DNA of 64,000 nt from Phycisphaerae bacterium (GTDB lineage Bacteria > Planctomycetota > Phycisphaerae > Sedimentisphaerales > Anaerobacaceae): NCBI GenBank assembly GCA_017993835.1, contig JAGOLX010000010.1, forward strand, positions 62,001 to 126,000, given 5' to 3'. This document shows, one piece after another, positions 33,721-44,291 of the stretch. The notes beneath the pieces are model-generated. The model was given only the letters and a program-made list of their open reading frames with translations. It made no database searches and had not been told where the DNA came from. How positions within the stretch are numbered: position 1 is the stretch's first letter; each line of letters opens with the position of its first letter. A program made the position numbers and the translations under genes.

Positions 33721-34512
33721 TCACTCGCTCTTGATGGAGGTCATCCAGTCTGGCCAGGCGGGTTCGGGGTAGCCGGGATCGAACCGCTTGCTCCACTTCT
33801 GTCGCCAGAGGGCTTTGAGCCAGACCTTGTCCACGTGGTAGTCGAGATAGACGCAGTTGACGGCGTACTGGTGGCGGTTGATGCAGAAGCGATTCATCGC
33901 GTTGTCGTCGCCGGTGTAGCGGGCGGCGCGGTCGTCCGCTTTGGGCGGGGTGTCCGTGTTGTCGGGCCAGGCGCACCAGAACCAGCAGTCCAGGAACAGC
34001 GGGATCAGGGCTGCGCCTTTGACGTTGGGCGTCTTCCAGAAGAACTGGGCAGGCTTGCCATAGAGGGTCCCGCCGGGCTCGATATTCTGATAGACCCAGC
34101 CGTTGATGCCGTAGCTGCCCCAGGTGCCTATGGGCCGGTTTCCGCTGGGGGCTACGATGCCCCACGACATGAACGCATCGCCGCCCAGAGTGGCGGTGTC
34201 GGTTGCGCCCTCGGGGGCCGCGATCTTCTCCGCCATCGGGCAGACGCGGAACTCATCGTCCTTGTGGTAGTAGTCGTACAGCAGGTCGATCCAGCGGCCC
34301 GAATCCCGGCCCCGCCTGGGGAACATGCCGTTGTTGTCGTCGCAGTACATGGCCCAGATTGTGCCCCATTGCTTGAGGTTGGACTGGCAGACGACCGCGC
34401 GGGCCTGCTTGCGGACTCGCTGCAGCGACGGCATCAGGATCGCCATCAGGATCGCGATAATCGCGATCACGACCAGCAGTTCGATCAGCGTGAACGCCCG
34501 CGGTTTCCTCAT
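33721..34512 (-). CDS. Pseudopilin-like secreted protein (paralogue 1)
   Basis: 263 aa. Prepilin peptidase leader [20 protein letters not shown], with the cleavage before F and Glu at +5, followed by the conserved LMAILMPSLQRVRKQAR helix. The globular part carries the planctomycete C-terminal RH...DYHVDKVWLKALW segment and ends in a Pro/Trp-rich tail. AAGGAAGGGGCC precedes the ATG. Member of the large DUF1559-like group processed as type II secretion or pilus pseudopilins. Last gene of a four-gene tandem family. Confidence 0.88.
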   Translation of the reverse strand: MRKPRAFTLIELLVVIAIIAILMAILMPSLQRVRKQARAVVCQSNLKQWGTIWAMYCDDNNGMFPRRGRDSGRWIDLLYDYYHKDDEFRVCPMAEKIAAPEGATDTATLGGDAFMSWGIVAPSGNRPIGTWGSYGINGWVYQNIEPGGTLYGKPAQFFWKTPNVKGAALIPLFLDCWFWCAWPDNTDTPPKADDRAARYTGDDNAMNRFCINRHQYAVNCVYLDYHVDKVWLKALWRQKWSKRFDPGYPEPAWPDWMTSIKSE

Positions 34513-34603
34513 GGCCCCTTCCTTTTCAGTGTCGTGCACTGTTTCTCGCATGTTCCATGCTCTCCGTTGACGCGATTCTCCGCCGTGAGCGACGATCCCC
34601 CGA

Positions 34604-35443
34604 CTACTGAGCGACGTTCGTCTTGCCGGGATAGTGCTCGTCAAGCCATTCCAGGTCGATGTTGGCTGGACTGAAGACCACGCCTTTTCCGAAGCCCTGG
34701 TTTGCGGCGTCCGTCCGACTGTTGAAGTAGACGATGGTCCGCTTGTCCTCCCACTTCTTGCGGTCGGAGTGGCCGTCCATGAAGCTGAACGTGCACGCGT
34801 CGCTGTGGAAGACGCCCAGCGGGTCCCACAGACTGCCGGCGTTGGGGTTGTAGGACCAGCCATCGTGATTGAAATTGCCCGCGGCGCCGTCGTAAATCTC
34901 CTCGACGAACAGCATCTTGTTGGCCGGGTCCTTGAAGGTGAACAGCTTCTTGGGGTCCTTGGCCTGGGTCGCTCGCAGGTAGTCCGGCAGCGAGTAGCTC
35001 CGGAAGATGCAGTACTCCAGGCCGCGTCCGAGGCTCGTGCCGAGGTTCTTGCGGAAGTCGCCTGGGCAGTGATAGGCCTTGACCTCCCTGACATAGGGGT
35101 ACAGGGCCCCCTGGCGCAGCCCGTTGTAGCGTTCGATGAGCGTGACGCTGCCGCTGGCCTTGGCGGTGTAGCTGGTGCCGTTGAAACTCATCGGCGGCAT
35201 CACCCAGGGCGGGACGCTGTTGGTGGTGATGGTCCCTGCCCAGCCGCCGACGATGGAGCCGCCGTTCTCGTCCGCGTACATGATGTAGGCCTGGGCGAGG
35301 GTCCGCTGGTTCGCCAGGCAGGTGATGCCCCGCGCCTGCTCTCGAGCGATCTTCAGAGAGGGCATCAGGATGGCCATGAGGATGGCGATGACCGCGATCA
35401 CGACCAGCAGCTCGATGAGGGTAAATGCCTTCCGTTTGCTCAT
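34604..35443 (-). CDS. Pseudopilin-like secreted protein (paralogue 2)
   Basis: 279 aa. Leader [20 protein letters not shown]; helix ILMPSLKIAREQARGI; C-terminal SFMDGHSDRKKW motif typical of the family. Start at 35443 (AGGAG 10 nt upstream) rather than 35452, which would abut the ribosome site. Part of the four-gene array; the globular middle differs from its neighbours, suggesting distinct cargo or assembly roles. Confidence 0.88.
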   Translation of the reverse strand: MSKRKAFTLIELLVVIAVIAILMAILMPSLKIAREQARGITCLANQRTLAQAYIMYADENGGSIVGGWAGTITTNSVPPWVMPPMSFNGTSYTAKASGSVTLIERYNGLRQGALYPYVREVKAYHCPGDFRKNLGTSLGRGLEYCIFRSYSLPDYLRATQAKDPKKLFTFKDPANKMLFVEEIYDGAAGNFNHDGWSYNPNAGSLWDPLGVFHSDACTFSFMDGHSDRKKWEDKRTIVYFNSRTDAANQGFGKGVVFSPANIDLEWLDEHYPGKTNVAQ

Positions 35444-35560
35444 AACCCACATGCTCCTCAGATGTACAGGTCGATGTCAACACAACACATCGAGCCGCCG
35501 TGGGCGGTTCGACGCGACAGCAGTCATCTCTGTTGCGCCTGGGTCACTGCCTCTCGGGCA

Positions 35561-36376
35561 TCACGGCATCGCGATCTTGGTCGCGTTCTGGCCCCAGACC
35601 ATGATCGACGCCCACACCAGGTCCGGGTTCTCCCCCTGGACTTCCGAGTTGGCGGTGGCAGGGATCTTCTTGCCGAATTGGATGGTCCGCGGGTCTTCCC
35701 ACTTGTGGTAATCGCTGCGTCCATCCGCGTAGGAGAACATGGTCCCGTCGCCATGACGGACCGGCGGCGGGTCCCACCATTTCCATTGATTCGTATACAC
35801 GGTCCAGCCGCCCAGAGCCGAGGGGCACGTGCCGCCGTCGTCGAGAAAGACCATGCGGTTCGAAGGGTCCTTGATGAGCGCCCGGCGCTTGATGATCGGG
35901 GCGCCCATGCTGTCCCAGTTCTTGCAGTTCATCGAGTCCGCGATCGAGTACGTGCGCAAGATCTTGCTCGCCTGTCCGTAGGTGGTCGAGGCCTTCCTTT
36001 CGACGGTGGGGCACTTGTAGATCTTGATGGTTTGCGTGTAGGGATAGAGGGCGCCGTCCAGGATGGCCTGTTTCTTCGCGTACTCCGTCATGGTGCTGCC
36101 CCAGTCGCTCTTGACCCAGTAGGGGCCGTTGGCGGTGATGCCGTACTCGCCGGAGTCGCCGTTGACGAGCTTGTCGTCGTTGTCGTCGGCATACATGATC
36201 CAGGCGATGGTGAGGTTCTTGAGGTTGCTCAGACAGATGCCGCGCTTGCCCTGCTCGCGCGCCCGGCTCAAGGCCGGCATGAGAATGGACATGAGGATGG
36301 CGATCACCGCGATCACCACCAGCAGCTCGATCAGGGTGAATCCGTTGCGGAGTCCCTTCTTGTGCCTTGTCGCCAT
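35561..36376 (-). CDS. Pseudopilin-like secreted protein (paralogue 3)
   Basis: 271 aa. Leader [20 protein letters not shown], helix [16 protein letters not shown], and the C-terminal [20 protein letters not shown] block (the H...DG signature of the family). GGGAGG sits 5-6 nt upstream of the ATG. Third of the tandem paralogues. Confidence 0.88.
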
Positions 36377-36476
36377 GCATTGCCTCCCGCAAATGTCAGG
36401 CAGAAACGTCTCCTATGTGTATGTGTAAAGAACCGGCCGGCTCTTGCAGGCCGGCCGATCGGGAATCATGCCAGGA

Positions 36477-37322
36477 TCAGTAGTCGGGGAGCGAGCTGAT
36501 CCAGTCCGGCCAGGCGGATCCGTCCACGCCGCCGGCCTTGGTGAAGGGCCCCATCGTATTGAACGCCTTGCTCCACTGCAGCGTGTAGAGTTCCTTGAGA
36601 CCCACCTTGCGGACCGACCAGTCCGCGAACGACACGTTCGTGAATCCTCTGTGTCGGTTGATGCAGACGCGACCCATGTTGTTGCTGTCCCAGGCCGCGT
36701 CCTCTTTTTCTGCCGGTCTCTGCGTATGCAGAGGCCACGTGTCGAAACGCAGCCCATCCATCATCACAGGGACGTTGTTGGCGTACTGCACGCTGTTGAG
36801 GTCGCGATAGCCGAACTTGGCAGCGATGCCCCCTTCGTAGTTAACGGTTGCGGGGACGCTGAGCAAGAAGCCGTTCAAAGAGTAACTGCCGTTGAAACCA
36901 TTTGAATTCATTACGTAGGTTTTGCCCTTATAGGGTCTCGACACCGGCGTCTTGAAGATACCCCACGAGTTGTAGATGTTCCGCGTTACGACTGCAACCC
37001 CTCTCTCGTCAGTGATCGGCTTGGTCGCTGTCGGGCAGAACCACGTCTTGTTCTGCTTCCAGTCCTGCTGTTTCTCCTCCAACTGGTGGACCCACCAGTA
37101 GCCAGAGTCGTCAGTCCCCGAGTAGAACTTACCGCCGTTCTCTCCAACGTACATATTGAACACGATATTCCACTGGCGAAGATTCGCGCCGCAGTTGATC
37201 TGCCTGGCCTGGTCCCGCACCCTGGACAAAGACGGCATGAGGATAGCCATCAGGATCGCGATGATGGCGATCACGACCAGCAGTTCGATCAGTGTAAATC
37301 CACGTCGCCCACTCTTGAACAT
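36477..37322 (-). CDS. Pseudopilin-like secreted protein (paralogue 4)
   Basis: 281 aa. Leader [20 protein letters not shown], helix LMPSLSRVRDQARQI, C-terminal FADWSVRKVGLKELYTLQW close to that of paralogue 1 (both with INRHxxxxN before it and a PDW near the end). AGGAG lies upstream of the ATG at 37322. First gene of the four in transcription order. Paralogues 1 and 4 are the closest pair, suggesting internal duplication. Confidence 0.88.
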   Translation of the reverse strand: MFKSGRRGFTLIELLVVIAIIAILMAILMPSLSRVRDQARQINCGANLRQWNIVFNMYVGENGGKFYSGTDDSGYWWVHQLEEKQQDWKQNKTWFCPTATKPITDERGVAVVTRNIYNSWGIFKTPVSRPYKGKTYVMNSNGFNGSYSLNGFLLSVPATVNYEGGIAAKFGYRDLNSVQYANNVPVMMDGLRFDTWPLHTQRPAEKEDAAWDSNNMGRVCINRHRGFTNVSFADWSVRKVGLKELYTLQWSKAFNTMGPFTKAGGVDGSAWPDWISSLPDY

Positions 37323-37595
37323 GACGATGCTCCTTCTACGCACCAGGATAACTTGAGGTACTTGCCTACCCGTGCAAGATGCTCCTATACGGCATCCTGT
37401 TCCACCGAACTTGGTTTTGTGCTGAGACCAGACCTTGATCCACGCTGATTATTATAGCTCCAGGATTTGGGCGATGCAAATCCAAAGCCCGCAAATTTCC
37501 CAAATCTCCGCGATTCCAGGCGGTAGCCGCGGTTCGGGATCGCCGACAGGACCAGGCAGGACCCGATCATTCCCGCGGACGCGGGAATCCAGGAA

Positions 37596-38648
37596 TCATG
37601 GGGTGCGCAGTGTGCCGCGAAGGGTCGCCATGTCCACGTACTGGTCCGGCGAGACTTCTTCCGGGCGACGGGTGGGGTCGATGGCCAATCGCTCGAAGAT
37701 CTCCGGCCAGACCTCCCGTCCACCCAGTTCCGGCGGGGCCTGCTTGACGCACGCGCGGAGCATCTTCCGGCGGTGGCCGATAAACAAACCCACGACGGCG
37801 CCGAAGAGATCCATATTGGCGATTCTCTCGCTCTTTTGCGAATCGCGTCTGTAGCGGACGATGGCGGAATCGACCTGCGGCGGCGGCCAAAACGCCCCCG
37901 GCGGCAGGGTCCTCAGCATCTCGACCTCGCCGGTTGCCTGAAGGAAGATGCTGAGCGTTCCGTAATCCCGACCGCCCGGCCGGGCGATCATCCGCTGGGC
38001 GACCTCCTTCTGCACGGTCACGCACATGCCATCGACGACCAAAGGACCCTTGACGAGATTGATCATGACGGGCGATGCGACATCGTAAGGCAGATTTGCG
38101 ACGAGCAGGACCCGTGGCCCACCAGTAGCACGGCCGTCCCGGCCGTGAGTAACACGGGCATCTTGCCCGTGGCAACTCGGAGGCAGAGCCTGCCCTCGAC
38201 CTGATTGGGGGATGCCCATGGGACTCATGGGCGGGACGCCCATGCTACTCACGGGCAAGATGCCCGTGCTACTTCCTTTTCCTTCGACCTTTGCCCTCGC
38301 GGTCTCCACCGCGTACACGACATCGGGCGCGATCGATCCCTTGTTCGAGAGTGCGTCGGTATTCAGGATCTGCACATTCCCGGCGTGGGTCAGTCGCGAA
38401 ATGGCGATTTGTGCAAGGGTTGTGTCTAGTTCGGCCGAGACCACTTGGCCCGCTCGCTCGGCCAGCGCCTCCGTGAGCGAGCCGGTCCCGGGCCCGACCT
38501 CCAGGACGACGTCGTGCGGATCGATCTGCGCGGAATCGACCAGCAGGCGCATCAGGTTCAGGTCCACGAGGAAATGCTGTCCGAGCCGGCGATTGGGCGC
38601 CACGCCGGCGGACTCGAGCAGTTCCTGGATCTGTCGCTTCGTTTGCAT
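37596..38648 (-). CDS. rsmA: 16S rRNA dimethyladenosine transferase with repeat-derived insertion
   Basis: 350 aa against roughly 270-290 for the family. It dimethylates two adjacent adenines in 16S rRNA helix 45 using SAM. Motifs: RRLGQHFLVD (20-29), SAM site EVGPGTGSL (50-58), NTDAL and VANLPYDVASP (motif IV, 183-193). Between the acidic motif and NLPY, residues about 124-178 are an in-frame insertion (GILPVSSMGVPPMSPMG, HGQDARVTHGRDGRATGG) that is translated dispersed repeat, not family sequence. Start at MQTKRQIQ, no clear ribosome site; palindrome copy B overlies its promoter region. Downstream of pdxA, a common pairing. Confidence 0.9.
   Translation of the reverse strand: MQTKRQIQELLESAGVAPNRRLGQHFLVDLNLMRLLVDSAQIDPHDVVLEVGPGTGSLTEALAERAGQVVSAELDTTLAQIAISRLTHAGNVQILNTDALSNKGSIAPDVVYAVETARAKVEGKGSSTGILPVSSMGVPPMSPMGIPQSGRGQALPPSCHGQDARVTHGRDGRATGGPRVLLVANLPYDVASPVMINLVKGPLVVDGMCVTVQKEVAQRMIARPGGRDYGTLSIFLQATGEVEMLRTLPPGAFWPPPQVDSAIVRYRRDSQKSERIANMDLFGAVVGLFIGHRRKMLRACVKQAPPELGGREVWPEIFERLAIDPTRRPEEVSPDQYVDMATLRGTLRTP
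38113..38276. repeat. Multi-hairpin dispersed repeat inserted in rsmA
   Basis: About 164 bp made of short hairpins: ACGGCCGTCCCGGCCGT, ACGGGCATCTTGCCCGT, ATGGGCGGGACGCCCAT and ACGGGCAAGATGCCCGT. It keeps the rsmA reading frame open. A two-hairpin relative lies at 40790-40845. Confidence 0.8.
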
Positions 38649-38661
38649 CAGAGAAGAAAGC

Positions 38662-38813
38662 ACGAATATCGAAATTCGAAATCCGAAACAAATCCGAATT
38701 CGCAAAACGCCAAATTCAAAACAACCTCCATCGGTTCGGCGATAGCGTTTCGGTCATTTGGGTTTCTCTGGTTTGGGCTTGTTTCGGATTTCGAGATTCG
38801 AATTTCGGATTTC
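38662..38813 (+). repeat. Long dispersed palindrome, copy B
   Basis: Same family as 27190-27337: left arm GAAATTCGAAATCCGAAAC, centre GGCGATAGCGTTTCGGTCAT, right arm TTGTTTCGGATTTCGAGATT. Sits between pdxA and rsmA. Confidence 0.85.
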
Positions 38814-38825
38814 CCCGCCGGCGGG

Positions 38826-39926
38826 TTACGCTGCATTGCCCGGCTCGTCGCGCGGTGCGCCGTTGGGCGATCGGCTGTTGGCTGCCGTCTCCGCGAGGGC
38901 CAGCGACCGACGGGTCTTGGCCATCTGGATCGCGGTCATGATCGCAGCCTTCATGCTCGATGGATTCGCCAGATTGCGACCGGCGATGTCGAACGCAGTC
39001 CCGTGGGCAGGCGAGGTCCGCACGAGCGGCAGGCCGATGGTGATGTTCACCGCGTGCTCGAAGTCCATCATCTTGACCGGGATCATGCCCTGGTCGTGGT
39101 ACATCGCGACGACCGCGTCGAACTCGCCGCGGATGGCCTTGACGAACAGGGCGTCCGCCGGGATCGGGCCGACGCAGTCGATCCCCTGTTCCTGGGCCAG
39201 CAGGATCGCGGGCGAGATGATCCGCTGTTCCTCGTCGCCGAACTGGCCCTGCTCGCCTGCGTGCGGGTTCAGGGCCGCTACCCCGATGTGCGGGGTCTCG
39301 ATCCCGAAGTAGTCCTTCAAGGTTTCGTTGAGCAGGTCGATCGGCTCGAAGACGCAGCCGATCGTGAACTTGTTGCGAACGTCGAACAGGCCCAGGTGAA
39401 TCGTCGCCAGCGCCACCTTCAGCGGTCCGGCTACGAACATCATTGCCTTGCGGGGCGACTTGCACTTCTGGGCGAACAGCTCCGTGTGACCCGGCCACGG
39501 CGCGTCGATCATCTTCCAACTGGTCTTGCTGATCGGCGCGGTCACGATGGCGTCGATGATCCCGTCCCTGGCCGCCGCGATGGCGTCCGTGCAGAACTTG
39601 ATCGACGCTTCGCCTGCCACCCGGCTGGGCTCCTTCAGCCAGGGGGGCACGCTGTACTCGTCGTAATCGGCGACGACGGCTTTATAAGGATACTCCCGGC
39701 TGATCTTCTCGTGCTGGTGGCGACCCCAGAAAGGCTCGATCTCGGCCCGGTCCGCGGCGTAGCAGAGCTGCTCGTTCATGCCGAAGACGATGAACTTGGC
39801 CGCTCGACGGACCTCCGGATCGGCCAGGGCTTTGACCACCACCTCCGGCCCGATGCCTGCGGCGTCGCCCATGGTCACCCCGATGACCATCTGCTCGGAA
39901 ATCGAATTGTGATTGACGTCTTCCAT
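38826..39926 (-). CDS. pdxA: 4-hydroxythreonine-4-phosphate dehydrogenase
   Basis: 366 aa, slightly longer than usual because of a Ser/Asn/Pro tail. It oxidises 4-phosphohydroxy-L-threonine in vitamin B6 synthesis. Motifs: IGVTMGDAAGIGPEV at the N-terminus, APISKTSW, PGHTELFAQ, the metal-site His in ALNPHAGEQG and YHDQGMIPVK, and VRTSPAHGTAFDIAG. Order on the minus strand is ribE, pdxA, rsmA; pdxA-rsmA adjacency is classical. Confidence 0.94.
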   Translation of the reverse strand: MEDVNHNSISEQMVIGVTMGDAAGIGPEVVVKALADPEVRRAAKFIVFGMNEQLCYAADRAEIEPFWGRHQHEKISREYPYKAVVADYDEYSVPPWLKEPSRVAGEASIKFCTDAIAAARDGIIDAIVTAPISKTSWKMIDAPWPGHTELFAQKCKSPRKAMMFVAGPLKVALATIHLGLFDVRNKFTIGCVFEPIDLLNETLKDYFGIETPHIGVAALNPHAGEQGQFGDEEQRIISPAILLAQEQGIDCVGPIPADALFVKAIRGEFDAVVAMYHDQGMIPVKMMDFEHAVNITIGLPLVRTSPAHGTAFDIAGRNLANPSSMKAAIMTAIQMAKTRRSLALAETAANSRSPNGAPRDEPGNAA

Positions 39927-39929
39927 TTA

Positions 39930-40018
39930 CGAATCACGATTTACGTATTACGAATCACGATTTGCGACCCGGACCCCGCGTCGGCGAGAGCCAAATCATA
40001 AATCGTAAATCACAAATC
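39930..40018. repeat. Short-module palindrome between ribE and pdxA
   Basis: Left arm ACGATTTACGTATTACGAAT and right arm AAATCATAAATCGTAAATCA form an imperfect hairpin of about 25 bp around a GC-rich loop. Related GATTT modules occur at 9572-9612 and near 54220-54250. Confidence 0.7.
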
Positions 40019-40019
40019 C

Positions 40020-40667
40020 CTAAAACCCCATCTGTCGCAATCGCTCGACCGTCAACGGCTCCTGCTTGGGCAGCAGGACCTCCAGTTGCCGACGGACGAT
40101 CTTGACGAGGATATCGACCTCGATATTGACCCGCCTGCCTGTTTGTGCGTTGCCCAGCGTGGTCCGGCTCAAGGTCTCGGGAATCGCCGCAACGCGGAAG
40201 CCGCCCGGGTCCATCCCTGCGATGGTCAGGCTCACGCCATCCACCGCGACCGAGCCTTTTACGACCATCTGGTCCAGGAGTTCCGTCCCGGCGGCAAAGT
40301 CTATATCGGCAAATTCGCCCAGCTTCCTGACCGAGCGGATGGTGGCGACGCCGTCGACGTGGCCCTGCACGATATGGCCGCCGAGACGGTCGGAGGCCTT
40401 CATCGCCCGCTCGATGTTCACCTTGACGCCGGGCCGCAGGGTCGCCAGCGAGGACCTTTCCAGCGTTTCCAGGCTCAGTCCGAAGGTGGCGGTCGTGCCG
40501 TGCAGTTGTGTGATGGTCAGGCAGACCCCGCTGACCGCGACGCTGTCGCCGAGCCGGCAATCGGCAGCCAGCTCGCCCAGCTCCACGACGAGGGAACCAC
40601 CGCCGGACGCGCCGGGCGGCGCCACCGACCTCACGTCGCACATACCTTCTATAAGTCCTGTAAACAT
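40020..40667 (-). CDS. ribE: Riboflavin synthase alpha chain
   Basis: 215 aa, standard size. It dismutates two 6,7-dimethyl-8-ribityllumazine molecules to riboflavin. Two lumazine-binding repeats are seen: MFTGLIEGM start, SVAVSGVCLTIT in the first barrel, GGHIVQGHVDGVATI at the junction and VAVDGVSLTIAG in the second. A promoter lies at 40719-40748. Other rib genes are not in the window. Confidence 0.94.
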   Translation of the reverse strand: MFTGLIEGMCDVRSVAPPGASGGGSLVVELGELAADCRLGDSVAVSGVCLTITQLHGTTATFGLSLETLERSSLATLRPGVKVNIERAMKASDRLGGHIVQGHVDGVATIRSVRKLGEFADIDFAAGTELLDQMVVKGSVAVDGVSLTIAGMDPGGFRVAAIPETLSRTTLGNAQTGRRVNIEVDILVKIVRRQLEVLLPKQEPLTVERLRQMGF

Positions 40668-40718
40668 ATCTACTTATCTCTCACGGCTGTTTCCCGCTCC
40701 TCCATGAGCCGTCAGACT

Positions 40719-40748
40719 ATGCTATTGTTTCGCCCCCCGGCCTGTCAA
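40719..40748 (-). promoter_or_regulatory. Sigma70-like promoter for ribE
   Basis: Minus strand TTGACA (40748-40743), 18-nt spacer, TAGCAT (40724-40719), about 50 nt upstream of the ribE ATG. No FMN riboswitch consensus was seen in the leader. Confidence 0.5.
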
Positions 40749-40789
40749 ACAATTGTTCCGGCCTGCAGTGTGCCTGTGAGGGCATTCCG

Positions 40790-40845
40790 TGGCACGGGCA
40801 TCCTGCCCGTGTTCAAGGTCATGGGCGAGACGCCCATGCTACTGC
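40790..40845. repeat. Two-hairpin relative of the rsmA insertion
   Basis: ACGGGCATCCTGCCCGT (40794-40810) and ATGGGCGAGACGCCCAT (40821-40837), the same modules as in 38113-38276. The rest of the gap 40846-40997 shows nothing else notable. Confidence 0.8.
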
Positions 40846-40997
40846 AACGCCTTACGGCATCCCTACGAATGCCTCCGGCGTGAAATCTCTTTTGTGAGGT
40901 GCGCGGACGTGCTAAGATGGCCGGCCGGCGTTGATGCTCTCGGGACTGCCCTTGGGGCGACCGAAGAGCTGTCCCGGCGGGGAAAGGAGCAGAAGTC

Positions 40998-41639
40998 ATG
41001 GGGTCGATTTGGGTGAAGATAGCAGGGGCGGTCGTCGTCCTCGTGCTGGTGATCGTCATTCTCGGCCGGCTGGGCGGGGATGAGCCCGCTTCCGGGCTGG
41101 CCCAGAAGGACAAGACCTTCTACGACATGGCCGAGCGGGACAAGCAGTTCGGCGAGGAGCCCAAGGCGGTCCAGCAACCCCCGGCCGAAGCGGCGCAGCA
41201 GCCTGTCGCCCAGGAGCCCGCGCCGACCGAGTCGCCCGCCCAGCCGCCTGCCCAGCAGCCGGCTCAGGCGGAACAGCAGCCTGTGGCACAGGTCCCCGGC
41301 GTCGTCCTGCCCAGCAGCATCACGAAGCCGACCACGCTGCACTTCAAGCCGCTGGACGAGACAGAGCAAGTCTCAGCCGAGCAGACTCTCCCCTGGGCGG
41401 TCGCCAGTCGCAGCATCGGCCGGCTCCCGATGATGCAGTATGGCCCGATGGTCAAGGCCTGCCGGGACATCCTACAGCGATGGCCGGAGAGCTGGTACGC
41501 CTTTCGGGCCAAACAGATGCTCGAGGAGGTCGCGGAACGCCACGCCCAGTACAACATCACGCAACAGGAGCTGGATATCAGTCGATTCTTGAAGCCGAGG
41601 CAGGGGACGGAGCCTCGGGAGGTGCAACCGGTACAATGA
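40998..41639 (+). CDS. Membrane-anchored protein with Pro/Gln linker
   Basis: 213 aa. N-terminal anchor helix (IWVKIAGAVVVLVLVIVILG), a Gln/Pro/Ala-rich stalk (about 55-105), then a globular end (about 120-200: GRLPMMQYGPMVKACRDILQ, WYAFRAKQMLEEVAER). AAAGGAG 9 nt upstream of the ATG. Its stop overlaps the next start (ATGA), so it is translationally coupled to the thymidylate-synthase-family gene. Function unknown. Confidence 0.75.
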   Translation: MGSIWVKIAGAVVVLVLVIVILGRLGGDEPASGLAQKDKTFYDMAERDKQFGEEPKAVQQPPAEAAQQPVAQEPAPTESPAQPPAQQPAQAEQQPVAQVPGVVLPSSITKPTTLHFKPLDETEQVSAEQTLPWAVASRSIGRLPMMQYGPMVKACRDILQRWPESWYAFRAKQMLEEVAERHAQYNITQQELDISRFLKPRQGTEPREVQPVQ

Positions 41640-42523
41640 CGATGACTGCCCGTGAAACGATGCCCGTGATCTCTATTGCCGCCGAGTGCCTGCCCGAAGC
41701 CTGGGAGAAGGCCGTACTGGCGGTCTGGGACCAGGGCTACGAGGTCAAGACCCAGTACGACAAGCCCGACGATCCGCCCAGCAAGGACGCGACGGTGATG
41801 ATCGCGGTGACGAACCCATTCAACGAGCCGCGGATTCACAAGAACTTCCCCGGCGGGCCCGAGGAGCTTGAAGCCTATCGCCAGGAGGTGGTCAGCGGCA
41901 TTCACGACCACTGGATTGATCCCGCGGCCGGCAAGTGGACCTACACCTATCACGAGCGGCTCTTCGCCTATCGCCCGGTTGAGGACCTGCGGAATGCGAA
42001 GAGTCCCAAGCCGTTCCGCGCGGTCAACCAGATCCAGTACATCATCGACGCGCTGTCCGATGCAGGTCACACCCGACGGGCCCAGGCGGTTACCTGGATG
42101 CCCACTGCCGATCCGCAGACGGACGATCCGCCGTGCTTGCAGCGGATCTGGTGCAGGCTCGTGCCCGATGAAACGGGCTGCTGGACGCTGAACATGAACA
42201 CCCACTGGCGGAGCCGGGACCTCTACAAAGCGTGGTTCATGAACGTCTACGCGCTGACCGACCTGCAGCGGACGATTGCCGAAGCGATTGCCGCCAAGCG
42301 TGGCGAACCGGTTCGCGTCGGTCGGTATGTGGACATCAGCGACTCGCTGCACATCTACGGCAGCTACCTCCGCGACGCCGCGGTGGAGGTCGAGAAGATG
42401 CGAAAGACCCCGTTCTCCCAGCGGGCCTGGACGAGCGATCACCCGGCGTTCGAGATGATGACGCAGGAGGCCCGCCAGAAGCTGGCCCGAGATCCCGACT
42501 GGTTCGCGAAGGCACGGGGCTAA
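41636..42523 (+). CDS. Thymidylate-synthase-family protein (archaeal-like)
   Basis: 295 aa. Catalytic features of the ThyA fold are present: active-site Cys in DDPPCLQRIW, phosphate-binding RSRDLYKAW, the Asn-containing WFMNVYALTDL, and the DSLHIYGSY (DxHxY) end motif. The N-terminal part differs from bacterial ThyA, resembling archaeal thymidylate synthases or dUMP/dCMP hydroxymethylases. It would make dTMP (or a hydroxymethyl nucleotide) from dUMP and methylene-THF. Overlaps the upstream membrane-protein gene by 4 bp; a second ATG at 41642 is possible. Confidence 0.8.
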   Translation: MTMTARETMPVISIAAECLPEAWEKAVLAVWDQGYEVKTQYDKPDDPPSKDATVMIAVTNPFNEPRIHKNFPGGPEELEAYRQEVVSGIHDHWIDPAAGKWTYTYHERLFAYRPVEDLRNAKSPKPFRAVNQIQYIIDALSDAGHTRRAQAVTWMPTADPQTDDPPCLQRIWCRLVPDETGCWTLNMNTHWRSRDLYKAWFMNVYALTDLQRTIAEAIAAKRGEPVRVGRYVDISDSLHIYGSYLRDAAVEVEKMRKTPFSQRAWTSDHPAFEMMTQEARQKLARDPDWFAKARG

Positions 42524-42532
42524 GAAGCACGA

Positions 42533-42673
42533 ATGTCGAAATCCGAAATCCGAAACAAGTTCAAAGGACCGAAGCCCAAATGACCGAAACGCTGTCGCCC
42601 ATCGGGATGTCCGTTTTGGATTTCGAGTTTTGAGCCTTCGTGCTTGTTTCGAATTTCGAAATTCGGATTTCGA
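42533..42673 (-). repeat. Long dispersed palindrome, copy C
   Basis: Opposite orientation to copies A and B: centre CCAAATGACCGAAACGCTG, right arm GAATTTCGAAATTCGGATTT. Lies between the thymidylate-synthase-like gene and the parvulin gene. Confidence 0.85.
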
Positions 42674-42697
42674 GTTTAAGACAGGTAGGAGTATTGA

Positions 42698-43555
42698 ATG
42701 GCGATTATCGTGAACGGCCAGAGAATCGAAGATGAGGAGATCCGGGCGGAGGCCGAGCGTCTGCGTCCCAGCTACGAGCGGGCCTTTGCCGACCTCGATG
42801 CGGCGACTCGCGAGGCCCAACTCCAGGACTGGTCCAAGGAGAACGTCGTCGAGCGGGTGCTCCTTCGCCAGGAAGCGAAGGCCGGCGGCCCACAGATCCC
42901 GGCGGCCGACGTGGATGCAGCCTTTGCCAGGCTCAAGGAGCGGTTCGAGAAACCCGAGGATCTCCACCGCGAGTTTAGCGTCGACAGCGACGAGAAGGTC
43001 AAGGAGATGATCGAGCTCCAGATCAAGGTCGAGCACAAGATCAACGAGGTCTGTGCGAAGGCGGGCGAGCCTTCAGAGTCCGAGATCCAGGAGTATTTCA
43101 GCCAGCACCAGGATCGATTCGCGTCGGGCGAGCAGATCCGCGTCGCCCATGTGGTCAAATATGTCAACTGGCAAACGGACGAGGCCACCGCGCACGAGAC
43201 CGTGACACAGGCGCAGCGGGAGATCGCGGCGGGCGCGCCGTTCGAGGCGGTCGTGAACAAGTACACCGACTGCGCCGACAGCGGCGGCGACCTCGGCTAC
43301 GTCTCCCGCGGACAACTGGTCGAGGAGTTCGAAGATGTAGTCTTCAACCTGAATCCCGGCCAGGTCAGCGACGTGTTCCGCACGCGGTTCGGCTTCCACA
43401 TCGCCAAGCTGTACGACCGCCGGCCGCCGGCGATCCCGCCGTTGAAAGAGGTCAGAGAGCAGATCGTCGAGCAGGTTAGGGAGCAAAAGAGGGAGCAAGT
43501 CCTCGGCGAGTATCTCGACACGTTGCGAAGCAAGGCGACGGTCGAAGAAGTGTGA
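42698..43555 (+). CDS. Parvulin-type peptidyl-prolyl isomerase
   Basis: 285 aa. A helical SurA/PrsA-like N-terminal region (about 1-140) is followed by a PpiC rotamase domain (about 145-235) with IRVAHVVKYV, DCADSGGDLGYVSRGQLV and FRTRFGFHIAKLYDRR. There is no signal peptide, so it would act in the cytoplasm unless exported otherwise, which is unusual for a SurA-like protein. TAGGAG 7 nt before the ATG. Catalyses prolyl isomerisation and chaperones clients. Confidence 0.85.
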   Translation: MAIIVNGQRIEDEEIRAEAERLRPSYERAFADLDAATREAQLQDWSKENVVERVLLRQEAKAGGPQIPAADVDAAFARLKERFEKPEDLHREFSVDSDEKVKEMIELQIKVEHKINEVCAKAGEPSESEIQEYFSQHQDRFASGEQIRVAHVVKYVNWQTDEATAHETVTQAQREIAAGAPFEAVVNKYTDCADSGGDLGYVSRGQLVEEFEDVVFNLNPGQVSDVFRTRFGFHIAKLYDRRPPAIPPLKEVREQIVEQVREQKREQVLGEYLDTLRSKATVEEV

Positions 43556-43863
43556 CGTCAGAGCGAGTGTCGAGACTCGGTTTGGGGCTTCGAGCTTAGA
43601 ACCTGACACTTCACGCCCCGATTTGCTTCTCGTGATTTCTAACGTAGACTTTGGGTAGCATGGAGGAGGGAAGGCAGAAAGCAGTAAGCGTGAATCAGTC
43701 TTTCAAGCAGAAGCCTGCCACACGGACAGGAAGGGGCGCCCGGATGCAAAGGGCCGCGTCCCGGGCTCCCGAAAGACCCCAGGCTGACCTGCGACTGCAC
43801 GCTCGGAAAGGGAACTGGGCCATGACGATCTTTGGGGGGGCTACGTGAGTTTCTTTCCGAGCC

Positions 43864-43896
43864 GGCCCCTGCGTCCCCAGACGCAGGGGCCTTTTT
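43864..43896 (+). terminator. Strong intrinsic terminator, possibly of a small RNA
   Basis: GGCCCCTGCGTC (43864-43875) / GACGCAGGGGCC (43880-43891) with a 4-nt loop and TTTTT. It is 300 nt past the parvulin stop, and just upstream is another stem GCTCGGAAAG / CTTTCCGAGC (about 43801-43862) enclosing GGGCCATGACGATCTTTGGG. The stretch 43556-43863 has no convincing CDS, so the terminator may end a small RNA or the parvulin mRNA. 43897-44291 holds only the leader of the next gene. Confidence 0.75.
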
Positions 43897-44291
43897 CATG
43901 TCTGCGCATCTGCGTCCGAGAAAAGCATTGCATGTCGGCCCGGCTTGTGGCATAATGTCTCCAGTATCGCGGCGTTTTGGTCCGCCGCGTTGGATGGTGT
44001 GATCGTGTGGGAGGATGGGTCGCTGCTGAACGCCCCTCGCGGGTCGGGATGCGCGTTGAGTCCGTGCCGGAAGGCCTCGCGCCGGACGCCTTGAGACGGA
44101 CAAGTCTGTCGCGGTGCATTTCCTCTGGGACTGCGTCCCAGGGAAACGCTGTCGCCTCTGTCCCCCCGCCCCGTTGCCAGCTACAGGAAGGAGATCGCTC
44201 AAACCGATCGTATATCCTAAATGTACCGCCTGGAGTATCCGAAGAGATGGGGGAAGGCCGTTCGAATAGTCTTGTGTGAAGGAGAAGTCTT

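Follow-up and report, generated by a model that had tools for sequence, protein, structure and literature searches.

How a hairpin-rich repeat comes to be read as part of a conserved enzyme is the question raised by rsmA (ksgA), the 16S rRNA dimethyladenosine methyltransferase gene in a 64,000-nucleotide stretch of a Phycisphaerae bacterium genome (contig JAGOLX010000010.1, positions 62,001 to 126,000; the window). The gene is one open frame that runs through a GTAG-tagged insert. This insert is very probably a composite repetitive extragenic palindrome (REP) of a mobile system linked to REP-associated tyrosine transposases (RAYTs), carried as an unstructured loop, with the RAYT form of the system also lying in frame in host genes. 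The features concerned, in window coordinates and with palindromes given without strand, are:

37596..38648, minus strand: rsmA (ksgA), 16S rRNA dimethyladenosine methyltransferase, one open frame running through the insert
38124..38273, minus strand: composite GTAG-tagged REP element, 150 bp or 50 codons, translated as SSTGILPVSSMGVPPMSPMGIPQSGRGQALPPSCHGQDARVTHGRDGRAT
38250..38268: palindrome CACGGGCAWSNTGCCCGTG, first in coding order, preceded by AGTAG, 0 mismatches
38226..38244: palindrome CATGGGCGNNNCGCCCATG, second in coding order, imperfect; the same hairpin flanks RAYT in nadE and valS of relatives
38153..38171: palindrome CACGGGCAWSNTGCCCGTG, third in coding order, perfect
38129..38147: palindrome CACGGCCGNNNCGGCCGTG, fourth in coding order, perfect, followed by CTACT
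40793..40838: shorter copy of the same REP family, two hairpins and a CTAC tag, outside any recognised gene

In coding order the element is laid out as AGTAG-hairpin-AGTAG-hairpin, a self-complementary spacer, hairpin and hairpin-CTACT, and its inverted arms of 48 nt are 77% complementary. The CACGGGCAWSNTGCCCGTG pattern has six matches in the window where 0.01 are expected, a count reached by none of 100 shuffles, and single-stranded DNA folding of 38100-38290 gives z = -6.9; on these two results chance palindromes were rejected. Genome-wide, the palindrome GGGCANNNTGCCCG is found 66/63 times (forward/reverse) versus 8/3 for the reversed pattern, BLAST returns 76 matches of the element in the window's genome (6.37 Mb in 115 contigs, estimated 99% complete), and GTAG-hairpin and hairpin-CTAC units are seen both in the element and throughout that genome. 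The insert, with its GTAG-tagged short palindromes, its high genomic copy number and its link to RAYT through relatives, is a GTAG REP. A known RNA family was rejected as its identity, no Rfam family being found at window positions 34000-44000 or at five RAYT/REP loci (L173, L195, L021, L117 and L217). The initial annotation had placed a translated repeat of about 55 codons (38113-38276) just before the NLPY motif of rsmA; the position in the gene and the reading frame hold, and the extent is corrected to the 150 bp listed above. The related copy that it reported at 40790-40845 consists of hairpins at 40793-40811 and 40820-40838, and the frame that it described as open in this orientation, the one rsmA uses, proves to be the only stop-free one of the six. 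At least two further GTAG-tagged hairpin families occur in the same genome (L054, L053, L104 and others), one of them, GTAGCCCAGCCG...CGGCTGGG, next to a RAYT in L054 and another of the form GTAGGGTGTGC...GCACACC.

On the minus strand rsmA runs from a probable ATG start at 38648-38646 to a stop codon at 37596-37598. The protein exceeds the NCBIfam KsgA/RsmA (TIGR00755) cut-off of 171 with 223.5 bits, a Pfam RrnaAD match (159.2 bits, 1.4e-46) spans the insert, and the motifs are intact, with NLPY present at N186-Y189 (alignment A2). Structural modelling of the loop, proposed earlier as a check, yields an AlphaFold model with a confident KsgA core in which residues 128-171 have a predicted local distance difference test score (pLDDT) below 50; this segment lies between the helix at 109-124 and the strand at 181-186, just ahead of NLPY, and the closest structural match of the model is KsgA (6ift). 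The insert is thus modelled as a disordered loop in an otherwise KsgA-folded RsmA. Outside the insert, the ratio of nonsynonymous to synonymous divergence (dN/dS) is 0.17 at a synonymous divergence (dS) of 0.75 (297 codons, the window's genome, G000, versus its congener G005), which points to purifying selection. A dead gene is unlikely, because the KsgA core is confident, the insert is in frame in the only full-length rsmA found in the genome, and a second species carries the insert as well.

That second species emerged from a comparison with relatives, all of them Phycisphaerae/Planctomycetota bins. RsmA was found in 57 of the 61 genomes searched, and the rsmA alignment comprises 30 retrieved loci, drawn from fewer genomes than those 57. 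Alignment with relatives lacking the insert had been set beforehand as a check: 28 of the 30 loci, including seven of the nine genomes of the genus, are without it, which rules out residues conserved across the family. The two loci that carry it belong to G000 and G005, members of one genus with RsmA proteins about 80% identical, and the element, its orientation, its frame and its site are the same in both. The site is a loop whose length varies among relatives. In several congeners it holds a different, Gly-Pro-rich repeat (L021, L023, L025, L027 and L029), a piece of which is retained next to the REP in G005.

The complete form of the system is seen elsewhere in this planctomycete family. 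The only close valS match found in G005 is a 1334-residue open frame in which a whole RAYT lies between translated REP arms, at a place where congeners without RAYT have a short loop. With the RAYT core as query, matches were found in 28 of 89 family genomes and at 18 places scoring at least 150 bits: 16 in the same loop of valS (16 genomes, 13 genera; loci L173 in G005, L176/L217 in G032, L177/L232 in G003, and L206-L220), one in nadE of G003 and one free-standing. Both valS halves are visible in 15 of the 16, the copy of G026 being cut by a contig end. All 17 embedded copies retain intact PNHVH (HUH) and YxxxNP (Tyr) motifs. The G005 copy scores 80.9 bits against the NCBIfam REP_Tyr_transpos cut-off of 80, and embedded RAYT aligns with TnpArep (4er8, 2.1e-08). 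In G003, an 871-residue frame that we take to be nadE-like (L195/L208, G003:C566) has its two domains separated by a complete RAYT and also carries a small REP within the amidase part; GTAG-tagged hairpins of the CATGGGCGNNNCGCCCATG class, that of the second rsmA hairpin, flank this RAYT on both sides. G085 and G018 have an additional REP in another loop of valyl-tRNA synthetase (ValRS). An even draw of the phylum gave a RAYT match in 46 of 294 genomes. Among the 28 phylum loci read, RAYT lies between both halves of a presumably FabZ-like protein, for which Pfam gives FabA-like in the two frames scanned, in six by motif and in a seventh by eye, in a different planctomycete family (L317, L320-L323, L325 and L326). 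Further hosts identified by Pfam are alaS (L319), purH (L333) and an oxidoreductase frame, and RAYT is also in frame inside three Eco57I-type restriction-modification methylases (L315, L331 and L334).

The valS site appears, from the trees, to have been invaded repeatedly, or the element exchanged. The RAYT tree groups G005 with G109 (99/96) and the ValRS tree groups G005 with G003 (96/94); for clade groups named after the trees had been seen, the RAYT data reject the G005+G003 constraint (p 0.0017) and the ValRS data reject G005+G109 (p 0.00009). The synonymous differences separating G005 from G003 amount to 0.83 for RAYT, compared with 0.47-0.48 for the flanks. Because the two trees conflict, the site would have been filled more than once or its element passed between lineages, and it is this distribution, with the trees, that suggests mobility.

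REPs of this family are found in frame in other genes too. A translated-peptide screen gave 55 candidate frames, of which 40 were included in a Pfam scan; a family above cut-off was present in 20 of the 40, and family matches flank the repeat on both sides in 16. The two-sided frames, several with names taken from NCBIfam, are rsmA (two genomes), alaS (G000 and G003, with different REPs in the same loop), pdxB, gltB, glycerate kinase, valS of G005, an FGE-histone-deacetylase fusion (G000 and G002, at different places), a solute-binding protein, a DUF790 protein, a UvrD/PD-(D/E)XK protein, a squalene-cyclase-like protein, a glycosidase and an rnhA-purN junction. At this junction (L005, 911-2212, plus strand) RNase H and PurN form a single frame with a REP between them, as though the stop codon had been replaced by the repeat. 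The 16 of 40 should not be taken as a frequency for the whole genome, because loci of relatives (among them L123-L142) were chosen from translated matches and are mostly long open frames; the 20 frames without a family above cut-off may be spurious products of GC-rich sequence. The initial description of a usually non-coding repeat within a conserved enzyme is therefore right about the enzyme and too narrow about the repeat, the same family being in frame in many genes of the genus, and the transposase with it.

These observations fit an explanation in which a non-autonomous composite of GTAG-tagged REP palindromes (REPIN/BIME-like) landed in rsmA, in its one open frame, within the variable-length loop before strand beta-4, so that RsmA would now carry an unstructured loop of 50 residues. 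The complete mobile form would be the RAYT (an HUH/Y1 transposase) between inverted REP arms, itself in frame in host genes, mostly that for ValRS, and RAYT probably moved the REPs. As the arms read as Gly/Pro/Ser/Ala-rich linkers (GILPV, MGVPPMS, HGQDARAT), an insertion in the right phase and in a loop would leave translation running, and selection would retain those insertions that the host enzyme tolerates. From its frame, the rsmA insert is presumably translated, and tolerated without splicing.

Several observations weigh against this explanation. The search of the window's genome turned up no close RAYT of this clade (best 33% identity) and hence no mobiliser for the REPs that it contains. 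Nor has the element evolved to stay open in some frame: counting any frame, 18 of 19 composite elements are open versus 97.6% of shuffled sequence, on each strand it is one particular frame that is open, in 17 and 15 of the 19 elements, and the open frame is a by-product with no evident adaptation. The element might instead be removed after transcription or translation, as an intron or intein, leaving mature RsmA without it. Patchy presence at one precise site in conserved enzymes does look like inteins and introns, but the elements examined preserve the reading frame, something that RNA-level splicing would not require, the insertion sites in rsmA and valS are loops rather than active sites, and no Rfam family was found at the loci given above. 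Neither the Pfam nor the NCBIfam scans, those of the valS fusion (L172) included, list an intein family, though no intein-specific search was made. We regard removal as highly improbable. That assembly or binning fused the repeat to rsmA is scarcely credible: the genomes of the window and its congeners are fragmented and REPs are multi-copy, but a second assembled genome carries this insert at the identical position, between flanks that have diverged to a dS of about 0.75, and neither genome was found to hold another copy as near as the two inserts are to one another.

The divergence between these two inserts bears on their function and history. Their nucleotides are 92.7% identical versus 77-80% in the flanks, with a dS of 0.08 and a dN/dS of about 0.9 against the flank values of 0.75 and 0.17, and purifying selection on the protein is not seen within the insert; all 76 hairpin columns are identical and 11 of the 74 non-hairpin columns differ. 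Unchanged hairpins beside flanks with a dS near 0.75 could be read as selection for a new function of RsmA, such as RNA or partner binding, an improbable account given the protein-level dN/dS, the disorder of the model and the behaviour of two other REP loci common to G000 and G005, in pdxB and in an intergenic region, which differ at only 9/80 and 10/108 columns (9-11%). Because these diverge so little, slow change seems to be a general trait of REP DNA at shared sites in this pair (L001/L021, L069/L171 and L016/L163, 7-11% diverged beside an rsmA dS near 0.75), and may reflect either constraint or renewed insertion. Gene conversion with other genomic copies was rejected, a closer copy being found in neither genome. 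It is possible, though we incline the other way, that the rsmA inserts of G000 and G005 arose recently and independently at a preferred site rather than from one inherited event, which would alter the history and nothing else in the explanation. The high identity of the inserts, the repeated use of one valS site and the different REPs in one alaS loop favour this, while the non-hairpin columns differ at near the flank level and the two copies are each other's closest relatives.

Around rsmA, window positions 33721-37343 (minus strand) hold a series of related open reading frames sharing one N-terminus, presumably pseudopilin-like. AT-rich intergenic stretches resembling inverted repeats lie at 38665-38830 (GAAATTCGAAATCCGAAA...) and 39925-40020 (TTACGAATCACGATTTACG...) in GC-rich surroundings. 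The REP copy at 40793..40838 is bordered by an open reading frame that we take to be riboflavin-synthase-like and, on the other side, by the next gene.

The system resembles REPtrons and REPINs in having a RAYT, with its HUH and Tyr motifs, flanked by GTAG REPs in inverted orientation, and also in having small derivatives that lack the transposase. RAYTs of REPtrons are normally separate genes, whereas the planctomycete RAYT continues in frame into host-enzyme sequence both before and after it. Inteins and homing endonucleases likewise occupy one site of an essential gene in frame, with a patchy distribution and conflicting trees; unlike inteins, the planctomycete element has no intein domain that we found and apparently stays in the protein. 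In-frame palindromes are themselves established. Translated Rickettsia palindromic elements (RPEs) are, in the part of the source available, also about 150 bp long and in frame in unrelated conserved genes, where they yield a conserved peptide (PMC10969869), and in-frame palindromic inserts in many unrelated genes are what we find here (16 of 40 scanned frames two-sided). The likeness is one of description rather than sequence, and the planctomycete element is GTAG-tagged and RAYT-linked, whereas that part names no RAYT for RPEs (PMC10969869). Intragenic GTAG REPs were described in several species in 2013, many in DNA- and RNA-processing genes and with Planctomycetes and Verrucomicrobia named as hosts; they too are GTAG-tagged palindromes in open reading frames, with inserts of 20-30 and up to 82 residues, but the main text, as far as available, has no RAYT within a host gene and contains neither ksgA nor methyltransferase as a term (PMC3733652). 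With such precedents, the rsmA insert taken by itself belongs to a known kind (RPEs, intragenic GTAG REPs), and the gene-embedded RAYTs are what sets this case apart. No description of a RAYT in frame within a host enzyme was found in the literature searched, most subscription journals lying outside the search. REPs in frame inside RAYT genes themselves have been described, and a transposase survey, in the part available, dropped transposases that were longer than expected, treating them as fusions or errors of annotation (PMC6006769); surveys of that design would miss gene-embedded RAYTs.

Tentatively, and with belief and doubt close to balanced, we propose that planctomycete RAYT-REPs form a class of unspliced in-frame protein-inserting transposons, which use their REP arms as linkers and repeatedly home in on set loops in essential genes (valS, fabZ, alaS), the solo REPs in rsmA, pdxB and others being derivatives without transposase. 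If so, sitting inside an essential gene would protect the transposase from loss, and life within genes that cannot be lost is a possible answer to the persistence of RAYTs. The natural series of empty sites, solo REPs and whole RAYTs allows insertion, tolerance and loss to be compared, and shows how conserved enzymes can acquire ready-made loops from mobile DNA.
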